A DNA stretch of 64,000 nucleotides, taken from Bifidobacterium pseudolongum subsp. globosum (GTDB lineage: Bacteria; Actinomycetota; Actinomycetes; Actinomycetales; Bifidobacteriaceae). The first letter of the stretch is position 1. Each line of letters starts with the position of its first letter. This document shows, piece by piece, positions 10,379 through 51,846 of the stretch. Position numbers and translations under genes: made by a program. The notes beneath the pieces were generated by a model. The model saw only the letters and a program-made list of their open reading frames with translations, was not told the origin of the DNA and ran no database searches. Location of the stretch: positions 186,001 through 250,000 of the forward strand of contig NZ_RYUH01000004.1 of assembly GCF_004155535.1 (NCBI RefSeq), read 5' to 3'.

Positions 10379-10494
10379 TTTTCGCCGTTTATGTCACTGC
10401 ATTCGCTGCTTTGGTCACCATTTTCGCTGCTTTGGTCACTTTTCTGCTGTATTTGTGACGTAAACGGCGAAAACAGTGACCAAAACAGCGAAAA
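10379..10494. repeat. Repeat element A: three direct and two inverted 21-bp units
   Basis: Units at 10379-10399, 10400-10420 and 10421-10441 are direct repeats that begin TTTTCGC (or CATTCGC) and end GTCACTG or a close variant. After a degenerate linker, inverted units occupy 10453-10473 and 10474-10494. The same design, with the same total length of 116 bases, recurs at 21049-21164. Both sit between the 3' end of one minus-strand gene and the start of the next. The whole element can fold into a long hairpin, and the 21-base period equals two helical turns, so an RNA structure or a protein-binding array are both possible. Confidence 0.8.
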
Positions 10495-13277: not shown

Positions 13278-13566
13278 GCGGTGCGCCGCTGGATTTATGG
13301 CTGTGTGTTGCTAGCCGGTAGCCATCGACGGCTATGACAGTGCGCTGTAGTGCTTCTGCGTCTGATGCTGACCACACACGCCATGCCAGCCATGCCATCC
13401 ACAGCCGGCACGTTCTCTGCTACGGGTAGTGCTTCGCCTGCTACGGGTAGTGGAAAATGGGCCAAAACTTGTTGTACGTCGATGAATATGCACTACCCGT
13501 AGCTCAGAAGGCACTGCCCGTAGCGGGAGGGGTTCTGCAGTCCCATCTGGGTGCTTTCTTGAAGCG
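13278..13566. repeat. Intergenic region with five CTACGGGTAGTG-family repeats
   Basis: CTACGGGTAGTG occurs at 13420-13431 and 13441-13452. Its reverse complement occurs at 13491-13502, and a variant CACTGCCCGTAG at 13512-13523. A related GGTAGCC-type sequence lies near 13317. Direct and inverted copies could pair into a cruciform or hairpin. No gene was recognised. The right end borders the ArsR operator. Confidence 0.65.
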
Positions 13567-21048: not shown

Positions 21049-21164
21049 TTTTCGCCGTTTGCGTCACTGTTTTCGCGGTTACGGTCACTGTTTTCGCTGT
21101 TATCGTCATTAATTCAGCCAAAAAGTGACCATAACGGCGAAAACAGTGACCGTAACCGCGAAAA
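21049..21164. repeat. Repeat element B: three direct and two inverted 21-bp units
   Basis: Direct units 21049-21069, 21070-21090 and 21091-21111 each begin TTTTCGC and end GTCACTG (third copy GTCATTA). After a 12-13-base linker, inverted units lie at about 21123-21143 and 21144-21164. The reverse complement of 21144-21164 is identical to unit 2, and the other inverted copy is close to unit 1. Length and layout match element A (10379-10494) exactly. It occupies the gap between ilvN (ends 21278) and the amidotransferase start. Confidence 0.8.
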
Positions 21165-27540: not shown

Positions 27541-27578
27541 GCACTGCCCGTAGCGGTCCTTCCCGCTACGGGCAGTGC
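27541..27578. terminator. Bidirectional hairpin made of CTACGGGCAGTG repeats
   Basis: Perfect 16-bp stem (27541-27556 with 27563-27578) with a 6-base loop, lying between two convergent genes. Each arm carries the CACTGCCCGTAG variant of the dispersed 12-bp repeat. A shared terminator for both genes is likely. Confidence 0.65.
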
Positions 27579-32349: not shown

Positions 32350-33621
32350 ATGCGTGCTTTGACGTTCACTGAACTTTCCCAAGACGATTTCGAGGCGTTC
32401 TCCGCGCGCGCCGCGCACGGCAACTTCCAGCAGACCGTGATGGCGGCCGCGTTGCGCAACCGCAACGGCGTGGCCACGCGATTCGTGGGCGTGCGCGAAG
32501 GCGGCGAGGTCGTGGCGGCCGCGCTGTTGGAGACGCACGGGTCGGGCCCCACCACGTTCTGCGCGGTGCACGACGGGCCGCTGTGCGACTACGACGACCG
32601 CGAGCTGACCGTGTTCTTCCTGGAGCATCTGGCGGCCTGCGCCAAGCGTCTGCATGCCGTGCACCTCGACATCACCCCCGAACAGCCGTACCGTGTGCTC
32701 GACGCGCAGGGCGAACCGATCGCCGGCGACGCGGCAAGCGACCCGGACAACGCGATGATTGCGAACATCACCGCCGCGCACATGGCCCACGGCGGGTTCA
32801 CGCGCGGCTACACGGCCGTGCCGCGCTGGCGGTTCGTCAAGGACCTCACCGGCATCGCCAGCGCGGAGCAGCTGCTCGCGTCGTTCTCGAAGCGCACGCA
32901 GTGGAGCGTCAAACGCGCGTGCAGCATGGGCGTGCGCATCCGGCAGATCGGTATGGACGAGCTGCACATCTTCTCGTCGATCGAGCAGGACACCGCCGAA
33001 CGCCGGCATTTCGCCTACCGCGGCGAGGAGTATTTCCGCGAGTTCGCGCAGGCGTACGGCGAGCACGCGCATTTTCTGATCGCCGAGATCGACACACACG
33101 CCTACGCGAGCGCGATGCAGCAGAAGGCCGATGATCTGCAGCGGCTCGTGGACGACCTGGACGCGAAGATCGCCGTACATGAGACGACCAAACTGCGCCG
33201 GCGCCACAACGAGGAGTCGAGCAATCTCGCCGCCGCGCGCAAGCGGCTCGACGAGGCGCGCGTGCTTGTGGAGCGCGGGGAGCGCCTCCCGGTCGCGGCG
33301 TCGCTGTTTGTGGACATGCCGCAGGAAGTTGTCTATCTGTTCTCCGGTTCGCTCGAGGAATACAAGCCGTTCTATGCGTCGGCGCTCATCCAGTACGAGG
33401 CGATGCTGCGGCTGTGCGTCGAGCAGGGCATCGCGCGCTACAACTTCTACGGCATCGACGGCGTGTTCGATGACCCGCACAGCGAGGGGCGCGGCGTGCT
33501 CGAGTTCAAGCAGGGGTTCAACGGGTACGTCGAGGAACTGCCCGGCGAGTTCATGCGTGTGCTGCGCCCCGCGATCTACCGGCTTGAACAGTTCGTGCAC
33601 ACCGTTCGCTCAAGGCGATAA
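32350..33621 (+). CDS. FemAB-family peptidoglycan bridge aminoacyltransferase, paralogue 1
   Basis: A 423-residue protein of the FemAB/FemX family, which uses aminoacyl-tRNA to add residues to the lipid II interpeptide bridge at the membrane. Two GNAT-like subdomains are visible (YTAVPRWRFVKDLTGI, SKRTQWSVKRA). A helical hairpin at residues ~245-310 (AMQQKADDLQRLVDDLDAKIA ... NLAAARKRLDEARVLVERGE) corresponds to the FemA coiled-coil arm. The C-terminal signature is VYLFSGSLEEYKPFYASALIQYEAM ... GIDGVFDDPHSEG. GGGGAGG precedes the ATG. The added amino acid cannot be read from sequence. A paralogue follows at 33727. Confidence 0.88.
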   Translation: MRALTFTELSQDDFEAFSARAAHGNFQQTVMAAALRNRNGVATRFVGVREGGEVVAAALLETHGSGPTTFCAVHDGPLCDYDDRELTVFFLEHLAACAKRLHAVHLDITPEQPYRVLDAQGEPIAGDAASDPDNAMIANITAAHMAHGGFTRGYTAVPRWRFVKDLTGIASAEQLLASFSKRTQWSVKRACSMGVRIRQIGMDELHIFSSIEQDTAERRHFAYRGEEYFREFAQAYGEHAHFLIAEIDTHAYASAMQQKADDLQRLVDDLDAKIAVHETTKLRRRHNEESSNLAAARKRLDEARVLVERGERLPVAASLFVDMPQEVVYLFSGSLEEYKPFYASALIQYEAMLRLCVEQGIARYNFYGIDGVFDDPHSEGRGVLEFKQGFNGYVEELPGEFMRVLRPAIYRLEQFVHTVRSRR

Positions 33622-33726
33622 TCATTGCTTCTTTTTCTGTGTGATAAATCTCTGCTTTGAGCGCAATATCGTTACGGTATATTTTCATGGTATCCGTAAG
33701 GTCGACCGCTCACGGAAGGCAGGACG

Positions 33727-35001
33727 ATGGCACAGGCAACCGCACGCCACTGGAACGTGCGCCCGTTGCGCGACGGCGAATTCGAGCAGCTCTCGCAGCG
33801 CATGGCCGAAGGCAGCTTCCAACAGTCGCTGGGCATGCGCGACATGGCGCAGTCGCACGGCGCGCGCACGTCGCTCGTCGGTGTCGTCGATGAGCATGAC
33901 GAGCCGGTCGCTGGCGCGATGATCGCGTACACGCCCTCGCGCTTCGGCCCGGTCGGGTCAGTGTGGGCGGGGCCGCTGTGCGACCCGGACGACCCGGACA
34001 TGGTGAGCGCGGTGAGCGAGGCGATCCTCGCGGACGGCCGGCGCCACCACGCGCTGAGCATCTCGTGCTGGCCCAACGACGTCTACCGCAGGCACCATTC
34101 CGACGGCAGCGCGGACGGCGCGGCGGACGGCGCGCTTATGCGCGACTACACGAGTGCGCACTGGCGGCACCAAGGGTTCGGCACCGGCTACGACTCGGTG
34201 ATGAACCGCTGGGTCTACGTCAAGGACCTCACAGGGATCTCCAGCGAGCGCGCGTTGCTCGGGTCATACTCCAAGCGCACGCAGTGGAGCGTCAAACGCG
34301 CGCGCAGCATGGGTGTGGTGGTGCGCGAAGTGGGCGAAGACCAGTTCGGCGTGTTCGCGCGGATTGAACAGCAGACCGCAGAGCGGCGCCGGTTCGCGTT
34401 CCGCGGCGAGCAGTACTTCCATGATTTCGCGCGGGCGTTCGGTGAGCGCGCGCATTTCATGGTCGCGTATATCGACACCGCACGCTACCTCGAATCCATG
34501 CAGCGCAAAGCCAATGATCTGCAGGCGCTCGTCGATTCGATCAGCGCGAAGATGCAGGCGCGCGAGACGACCAAACTGCGCCGGCGGTACAACGAGGAGT
34601 CGAGCAATCTGGCTGCCGCGAACAAGCGGTTGCAGGCGGCGCGCGAACTCGCGGCGCGCGGCGACATGCTGCCGGCCGCGTGCTCGCTGTTCGTCGAGCA
34701 TCCGAACGAAGTCGTCTACCTATTCTCCGGCTCGCTCGAGGAATTCAAGCCGTTCTATGCCTCCGCGCTGATCCAGCACGAGGCGATGCTGCGGCTGTGC
34801 GTGGAGCACAGCATCGACCGGTACAATTTCTACGGCATCGACGGCGTGTTCGACGACCCGCACAGCGAAGGGCACGGCGTGCTCGAGTTCAAGCAGGGAT
34901 TCAACGGGTACGTGGAGGAACTGCCCGGCGAGTTCACGCTGCCGGTGAGCCGCGTGCGATGCGCGGTCAAGCGGATCGCACAGAAAGTGATCGGCGGCTG
35001 A
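33727..35001 (+). CDS. FemAB-family peptidoglycan bridge aminoacyltransferase, paralogue 2
   Basis: A 424-residue paralogue of the preceding gene with the same domain order: KDLTGISSERALLGSYSKRTQWSVKRARSMG, the coiled-coil arm (MQRKANDLQALVDSISAKMQ, AANKRLQAARELAARGD), and VYLFSGSLEEFKPFYASALIQHEAM ... GIDGVFDDPHSEGHG. The N-terminal third has diverged most, suggesting different substrates, for example successive residues of the bridge. A 105-base spacer with a TTGAGC/TATATT pair (33657-33683, 15-base spacer) may hold a weak separate promoter. The 3' end converges on the AEC transporter, 7 bases apart. Confidence 0.87.
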   Translation: MAQATARHWNVRPLRDGEFEQLSQRMAEGSFQQSLGMRDMAQSHGARTSLVGVVDEHDEPVAGAMIAYTPSRFGPVGSVWAGPLCDPDDPDMVSAVSEAILADGRRHHALSISCWPNDVYRRHHSDGSADGAADGALMRDYTSAHWRHQGFGTGYDSVMNRWVYVKDLTGISSERALLGSYSKRTQWSVKRARSMGVVVREVGEDQFGVFARIEQQTAERRRFAFRGEQYFHDFARAFGERAHFMVAYIDTARYLESMQRKANDLQALVDSISAKMQARETTKLRRRYNEESSNLAAANKRLQAARELAARGDMLPAACSLFVEHPNEVVYLFSGSLEEFKPFYASALIQHEAMLRLCVEHSIDRYNFYGIDGVFDDPHSEGHGVLEFKQGFNGYVEELPGEFTLPVSRVRCAVKRIAQKVIGG

Positions 35002-36019: not shown

Positions 36020-36371
36020 GGTGTCGGTTCTTCTGTGTGGGGTTGTGCGCGGTGGGTCGTATGCGGATGATGGGGTTGTGCCGCTTGTTGTGTTGCTTCT
36101 ATTCTGTTGTGTTGCTTCTACTTCTATCCTGGTACTGCATATATTTTGCTACTTCTTATCCTGCTACGGGTAGTGGTTCTTCTGCTACTGGTAGTGGTTG
36201 GATTGTGTGATTGTGTTCCGATATGCGCGATTATGGTATATCGGCCGGATGAATGCCGCGTGTCGTGTCTTGCGACACGCCGTGTGGGGCATGCTGCGCC
36301 GTCAGGATTGGACAAATCCGCGATGTTGGGTAAGATATTCTTTCTGTGCACAGATGCAAATCATGTGGCAC
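36020..36371. repeat. Intergenic region with CTACGGGTAGTG-family copies before the tRNAs
   Basis: AT-richer than its neighbours, with pyrimidine-rich direct repeats (TTGTTGTGTTGCTTCTA, repeated near 36080-36120). CTACGGGTAGTG is at 36164-36175 and a variant CTACTGGTAGTG at 36185-36196, 21 bases apart. The region should include the tRNA promoter; no unambiguous -35/-10 was seen. Confidence 0.55.
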
Positions 36372-36573: not shown

Positions 36574-36580
36574 CCTTTCG

Positions 36581-36695
36581 CTACGGGTAGTACCTTCTTC
36601 GCTACGGGTAGTGCTTTTTCGCGCCCATCTTCTATATGATCCGCTATATTCCAACGATTCCGTCTAGCCCTCAGGCGTGGAAGCACTACCCGTAG
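36581..36695. repeat. CTACGGGTAGTG-family cluster after the tRNAs
   Basis: CTACGGGTAGTA at 36581-36592, CTACGGGTAGTG at 36602-36613 (21 bases later) and the inverted copy CACTACCCGTAG at 36684-36695. Together with the copies at 36164-36196, the repeats bracket the tRNA pair. Confidence 0.7.
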
Positions 36696-36735
36696 CAACA
36701 GGAAGGATGCAGCCGCAGAAAGGCAGGCACGAAAA

Positions 36736-36890: not shown

Positions 36891-37065
36891 GCGCTCGAAT
36901 TGTACGCAGTTTTCAAAAGCGTGCGTACAATTCTTGCGCGGGGGAGGCCGGTTGCGCTCGAATTGTACGCAGGCGAGAGCGGGCTGCGTACAAATCGTAC
37001 GCAAAGGGGAGCTATTGCGCGCGAATTGTACGCAGAGACGGCAAAAGCGCGTACAATTCGTACGC
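36891..37065. repeat. 63-bp hairpin module repeated three times upstream of manC
   Basis: Each module starts with GCGC(T/G)CGAATTGTACGCA, at 36891, 36954 and 37017, exactly 63 bases apart. Each is followed by an inverted GCGTACAATTC-type arm (36922-36933, from 36985, from 37049), giving stems of about 11-12 bp. The array ends 29 bases before the manC ATG. It could be a regulator-binding array, a set of RNA hairpins, or a remnant of repeat expansion. Confidence 0.8.
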
Positions 37066-40222: not shown

Positions 40223-40334
40223 GACCGCGCACTTTTTTCGGGGTTACGGAAAAAGTGCGCGGTCAAACCCCTCTAAATACGGCATATGCCTCAATACAAC
40301 GCGCACTTTTTCTGAGACTTCAAAAAAAGTGCGC
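40223..40334. repeat. Two GCGCACTTTTT hairpins between pgi and rplS
   Basis: First hairpin: 40223-40239 with 40248-40264, near-perfect 16-17 bp (GACCGCGCACTTTTTTC pairing with its complement). Second: 40301-40311 with 40324-40334, 11 bp with the same GCGCACTTTTT core. The motif also occurs upstream of trmD (4056-4070). Unlike ordinary intrinsic terminators, the T-run is within the 5' arm, so both strands look alike and a bidirectional signal is possible. A palindrome GGCATATGCC lies between them (40281-40290). Confidence 0.6.
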
Positions 40335-40534
40335 GGTCTGTATGGCCATATATACTGATGCCTCGTTGTGCCGATGGGTTGGTCGCCGCATAGATCCGCC
40401 CATCTCAAGGTCCAGCCGAACCCTGACTTTCGGCGGATTGGCAGCCCGCGGGCCGAAGTGGTCCGCGACGATTCAGGCGCCTGCCCAAGGCGCCCCAACC
40501 ACTGCGCTGATATGCGGCAGCGAGCGAGGGAACA
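40335..40534. other. rplS upstream region
   Basis: A TATACT hexamer (40351-40356) is a candidate -10 without a convincing -35. About 180 bases remain before the rplS ATG, long enough for a structured leader, but no autoregulatory structure was recognised. Confidence 0.35.
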
Positions 40535-51716: not shown

Positions 51717-51846
51717 TATCTCGCTTACGAGAGTGCCCTAATCGGGCTACCCTCGAGTACGACCTCTGTGAAATGCCATAATTACACCAATTCGAGGGGC
51801 CCATACTTGGGGGTGGGCAGATTAAGGCACTCTCGTAAGCGAGATA
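51717..51846. mobile_element. 130-bp element with 26-bp terminal inverted repeats
   Basis: 51717-51742 and 51821-51846 are inverted repeats matching at 25 of 26 positions (outer part TATCTCGCTTACGAGAGTGCC). The 78-base interior holds nested short pairings (CCCTCGA with TCGAGGG; GCCCA with TGGGC) and no reading frame. Size and symmetry resemble a MITE, but no target-site duplication is visible at the edges. A structured RNA is an alternative. It lies between the rne terminator and the 3' end of the DUF559 gene. Confidence 0.6.

Follow-up and report, generated by a model that had tools for sequence, protein, structure and literature searches.

The 64,000-nucleotide stretch of Bifidobacterium pseudolongum subsp. 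globosum DNA considered here (contig NZ_RYUH01000004.1, positions 186,001 to 250,000; called the window throughout, and lying within contig C18 of the genome under study, G000) contains two arrays, copies A and B, in each of which three direct and two inverted 21-bp units surround an 11-nt spacer (Table 1). They belong to a dispersed family whose abundance follows the presence of a gene, P0001, located on another contig. The coordinates and 3+2 plan given for both copies in a first-pass annotation of the sequence proved correct, and its statement that a minus-strand gene start lies just downstream also holds for A and B (an Exo_endo_phos gene and a GATase gene), but other elements in the genome are placed otherwise.

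Matches to TTTTCGCNGTTNNNGTCACTG with up to three mismatches number nine in the window against 0.10 expected, and none of 100 shuffles reaches nine. Strong hairpins are predicted when the arrays are folded as DNA (z = -5.4 / -6.1 for copy A and -11.7 / -9.7 for copy B); in both, direct units 2-3 pair with the inverted pair and unit 1 is left unpaired. The annotation also had inverted units tracking particular direct ones, and in copy A unit 1 is indeed tracked, in sequence only, but in copy B it is unit 2 that recurs as the outer inverted unit. The copy A spacer is alike and equally oriented at the same locus in B. pseudolongum subsp. pseudolongum DSM 20099 (G007) and B. pseudolongum subsp. 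globosum LMG 11569 (G078).

Table 1. Array features of the window, with positions counted from its first nucleotide
Feature	Position	Strand	Remark
Copy A hairpin array	10379..10494	+ (by T-first loop)	3 direct + 2 inverted units
Copy A unit 1	10379..10399	+	outside predicted stem
Copy A unit 2, degenerate	10400..10420	+	
Copy A unit 3, inner, left arm	10421..10441	+	
Copy A central spacer TTCTGCTGTAT, 11 nt	10442..10452	+	
Copy A inverted unit, inner, right arm	10453..10473	-	
Copy A inverted unit, outer, right arm	10474..10494	-	
Copy B hairpin array, same plan as copy A	21049..21164	-	loop opposite to copy A
Copy B unit 1	21049..21069	+	outside predicted stem
Copy B unit 2	21070..21090	+	identical to copy B outer inverted unit
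Copy B unit 3, inner	21091..21111	+	
Copy B central spacer	21112..21122	-	inverted relative to flanks in G078
Copy B inverted unit, inner	21123..21143	-	
Copy B inverted unit, outer	21144..21164	-	
Second array family TGCGTACAATTC, both orientations, 63-bp period	36897..37059	.	matches array beside P0001-type gene

A dispersed family of 21-bp arrays

The unit core is TTCGCYGTTTNNGTCA, and each element consists of inverted arms of one to three tandem 21-bp units flanking the spacer. With at most two mismatches allowed, G000 contains 33 units, which fall into 13 elements and one lone unit; the reversed control pattern gives none. When units with up to 7/17 mismatches are included and the spacer is set at 11 nt, seven of the 13 elements have five units (3+2 or 2+3), five have 2+2 and one has 1+3; the fixed 3+2 plan thus fails to generalise. 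The 21-bp period does hold throughout, as does the spacer length, which was 11 nt for each element when 7-15 nt were allowed (rows with a 12-nt spacer pair the same units out of register). The spacer is asymmetric and mostly T-first, like TTTNGCTGGAT, so that most elements have an orientation. Elements also occur between convergent genes (five, as judged by picking of open reading frames, ORFs) and 3' of a tRNA cluster.

The suggestion of a new repeat family or binding array for A and B finds support: copies occur across the genome and in related genomes, the core is constrained, and searches of five sources against Rfam at the gathering score matched only tRNAs, with nothing at copy A or B. 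A two-unit pattern had no matches in viral contigs, and the loose unit gave many single matches in unrelated taxa among the matches listed for named genomes. The unit pattern itself matched two of 59 genomes, G000 included. A covariance model built from 23 elements matched 12 of 112 genus genomes, with 26-29 matches (both strands counted) in each of G000, G007, G078 and a fourth genome, G006, and one or two in each of the other eight; the genomes behind these comparisons are drafts, and related loci were counted together.

G000, G007 and G078 have 13 elements each, and 11 loci are common to all three, two being found only in G000 and two only in G007 and G078. The single absent site compared in a test for miniature inverted-repeat transposable elements of an insertion sequence, for which clean empty sites with a target duplication would be expected, lies in G007 and resembles a deletion that left a unit remnant. 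Alignment shows locus A without an element in G072 and G027, and locus B without one in G072; by eye locus B also lacks it in G006, G063, G027 and G068. In G006, 14 of 15 stretches read contained hairpins built from a related 21-bp unit, frequently arranged in tandem. By flank comparison five of the 15 match a stretch of the G000 clade, and no fetched stretch is matched by the remaining ten; of the five, one (L125) is the P0001 homologue itself, two (L121 and L131) have, as judged by eye, their element in another intergenic gap, and two (L118 and L126) could be read either way.

The probable partner gene P0001 and its relatives

P0001 encodes 345 aa on the minus strand (L016:3161-4198) and is bracketed by two elements on contig C17, one of them 98 bp from its start. 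It is also bracketed by elements in G007 and G078, and in G006, which represents a more distant species, related arrays lie on both sides of a 57%-identical homologue; the latter is frameshifted in the assembly (L125:1830-2860), and its flanking arrays persist. The presence of arrays follows the gene and not similarity at locus A, where identity to G000 is 76% for G006 and 83% and 82% for G027 and G072; the latter two have no close P0001 homologue, and arrays number none in G027 and one in G072. With model matches counted at E up to 0.01 under stricter filters in the 112 genomes, more than two matches were found in all four genomes with a close homologue and in none of the 108 others. The single element of G072 (C33:17669-17763, L045) resembles C17a of G000 and has similar flanks, and by eye we take it for a recombined stretch.

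Synonymous divergence of P0001 is 0.21-0.38, and purifying selection acts on it in three genomes. Pfam and NCBIfam gave no convincing name, Foldseek alone found no match below E 0.001, and a sequence search of the PDB returned one weak unrelated row. A two-domain fold is predicted, comprising a winged-helix DNA-binding domain and a Vsr/homing-endonuclease-like domain: the N-terminal part of the modelled structure aligns with AbiEi (6y8q) and by our test would have the AbiEi fold or profile, and the C-terminal part resembles the Vsr-like nuclease I-Bth0305I and would likewise share its fold. The nuclease-like domain shows invariant acidic residues and a lysine, the conserved set including K278.

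Relatives of P0001 are present in all 16 Bifidobacterium genomes searched (E 1e-5), and every database match with a named organism is a Bifidobacterium protein, many labelled CTP synthase and others hypothetical; the former label is unsupported by the predicted fold. The left and right flanks share a gene-specific repeat at 31 of 53 loci of such relatives as against four of 120 control positions in the window, counts which are not independent, since orthologues were kept, and for which some gene ends are approximate. Three of these four control positions are duplicated coding sequence (two tandem ORFs near 33-35 kb, and two parts of a single ORF at 18.0-20.2 kb) and the remaining one is a weak match. 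Of the 30 loci numbered L261 to L290, two were excluded: L265 for lack of a usable gene stretch, and L289 because it occupies the contig place of L276. Five of 20 further stretches repeated earlier loci and were likewise excluded, leaving 43 tested in that round. In an earlier test with longer flanks, 23 of 29 loci exceeded 37 bits, as did 17 of 784 cross-genome pairs, the largest of the latter being likely orthologous loci.

Array sequence also diverges with the protein, in that array words are shared by 11 of 34 protein pairs above 300 bits and by five of 494 below. Dominant array periods include some near whole helical turns (21, 52-53, 63, 105 and 125 bp) and others off them (26, 29, 30 and 145), and the test of helical phasing across the genus is no more than suggestive. 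The window holds a second array family (Table 1), whose repeat flanks, on one side, a different gene of P0001 type in G007 and G078; none of the four family loci found in G000 is close to that gene in sequence (34% identity over its full length and 40% over 126 residues).

Array turnover and a possible role of P0001

Between species, orthologous loci gain and lose whole units, and their arms change together. At five of the 13 loci (C9, C17a, B, C17b and C17c) the loop, its orientation judged by eye, is inverted relative to the flanks. Core positions differ in 3% of comparisons for inner units and 8% for outer units, while the free positions (8, 12-14) differ in 17% and 41%, respectively, and aligned flanks in 16%; that the core is far less changed than its surroundings is most simply explained if it is a protein site, with the caveat that the elements were located partly by means of their core.

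The first-pass annotation had read the matching of the arms as pairing under selection. The covariation itself is genuine, with 69 double-changed cells compared with 33 +/- 4 in shuffles, and an RNA structure at first seemed strongly indicated, but mismatches of the G-U type occur equally often on either strand (31 vs 32) and the arms match while the loops invert. This strand symmetry and the tolerance of loop flips weaken that candidate, and we make no claim that RNA pairing is under selection. DNA-level template switching or break-and-repair accounts for both the matched arms and the loop inversion. Matched arms and inverted spacers are indeed the signature of template-switch (quasipalindrome) mutation according to two reports (PMC8604942; PMC8794818), although this is a mutational process rather than a system and leaves the low core change and the tie to a gene unexplained.

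We favour the view, with a probability of roughly 0.6, that A and B are dispersed arrays bound by P0001, whose putative nuclease would cut and reshape them. P0001 would bind the 21-bp unit, with inverted units probably occupied by a dimer, and units spaced two helical turns apart would be presented on one face of the DNA. It may cut close to the loop edges (GTCA/TGAC), and a cut at these symmetric edges could release a fragment able to rejoin either way round, with repair from the other arm keeping the arms matched. Break repair of this kind would explain loop flips, matched arms, unit turnover and occasional copying, and dispersed copies such as A and B may have arisen via cut-and-repair and then been kept as binding sites.

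The alternative that survives best, though we regard it as unlikely, is an immobile binding array, in which P0001 or another protein uses the elements as operators or for organising the chromosome, the nuclease is uninvolved and the arms are matched by replication template switching. A slowly changing core with free positions between, the 21-bp spacing and the element 98 bp from the P0001 start would all suit such an array, as would the lean of the elements to the origin half of the chromosome. That lean involves 11 of 13 loci of the G000 clade (p 0.01, mapped on G063, with g1 omitted for want of a reliable place, the G062 map unused, and C17b and C17c counted as one) and, in G006, nine of the 11 mapped loci out of 15 (p 0.03); with neighbours merged the count becomes six of eight (p 0.14). 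Clustering on the origin side is thus suggestive, and weak once neighbouring loci are merged. Immobile sites, however, leave unexplained both the occurrence of the same repeat on the two sides of P0001 and the loop inversion at five of 13 loci. That the elements are dead repeats, old non-autonomous copies without present function whose palindromy is maintained by template switching, is improbable: unit turnover, deletion and matched arms would be expected of them, but core positions are nearly unchanged between species, in contrast to the flanks and outer free positions, and P0001 is under purifying selection in three genomes. Least probable of all, and only slightly less so than the last, is an RNA hairpin acting in transcripts as a stabiliser, attenuator or bidirectional terminator with selected base pairing, which the strong predicted hairpins, the covariation and the frequent position of elements at 3' ends of genes would fit, but which sits poorly with the lack of any intrinsic terminator (GC stem then T run) or Rfam match at copies A and B, the separate inverted repeats between elements and the ends of ffh and ilvN, the strand-symmetric G-U mismatches and loops that flip between species.

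An association of dispersed arrays with P0001 as binding and cutting enzyme would have a parallel in repetitive extragenic palindromic (REP) sequences and bacterial interspersed mosaic elements with their RAYTs (REPINs). These are palindromic intergenic repeats, and one account (PMC2817692) describes an enzyme gene flanked by cognate repeats that diverge with the gene and are more numerous where it is present. P0001 is likewise flanked by cognate repeats, in G000, G007, G078 and G006, as are 31 of its 53 relatives, and array abundance follows its presence (4/4 vs 0/108 genomes). The differences are that P0001 is, by predicted fold, an AbiEi-nuclease fusion, and that the arrays are multi-unit, with a 21-bp period and 11-nt spacer, and were found in 13 copies, whereas REPs usually exceed 100 per genome. 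A RAYT was sought in G000 as a Y1/HUH transposase (PF01797) and gave no match, the same search being positive in five of 14 control genomes. By analogy, the arrays and P0001 may work like a REP-RAYT pair without being a member of that class, no RAYT having been found and the predicted protein fold being a different one.

AbiEi binds inverted repeats in its own promoter, according to PMC3985639. The N-terminal part of the P0001 model aligns with this component of the AbiE type IV toxin-antitoxin system, but P0001 carries a fused nuclease-like domain, and its arrays flank the gene on either side and are found at other sites too. Compared with Vsr and the Vsr-like homing endonuclease I-Bth0305I, no intron or intein turned up here, none having been searched for, and the candidate cognate sequence is an array present in multiple copies, next to the gene and at other sites. 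The Vsr-like homing endonuclease group has conserved histidines; P0001 has K278.

A broader proposal, which we offer tentatively and at somewhat less than even odds, is that Bifidobacterium as a genus has a class of AbiEi-nuclease fusions, each with its own phased palindromic array that is spread and rewritten by loop cutting, loop flipping included, and that this class is a counterpart of REP-RAYT which evolved from unrelated parts. No description of such arrays, or of array-flanked AbiEi-nuclease genes, in Bifidobacterium was found in titles and abstract openings, a survey that covered few subscription papers. If correct, the proposal would mean that the Actinobacteria have a pairing of repeat and enzyme similar to REP-RAYT, with an antitoxin-type DNA-binding domain and a homing-endonuclease-like nuclease as its protein components; it would explain a gene family publicly labelled 'CTP synthase' or hypothetical, and would provide a natural model of palindrome rewriting in bacteria through loop flips, arm repair and unit turnover.

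Other repeats in the window

A further 21-bp-phased family, F2 (CTACGGGYAGTG), occurs in direct and inverted orientation at window positions 13419-13524 (where the arrangement is 2+2 inverted), 27542-27577, 36163-36196, 36580-36696 and 2560, and also at L018 3875-3907, L018 5540-5572 and in L205; no partner gene for it was found in the fetched loci. Four CGCGCACTTTTTC units of alternating orientation form nested inverted repeats at 40226-40335, and a long inverted repeat at 51717-51846 has 43-nt arms that are 86% complementary and 44 nt apart. The adjoining plus-strand ORFs of 423 and 424 aa at 32350-35001 have a DNA identity of about 84% and are likely a tandem gene duplication.
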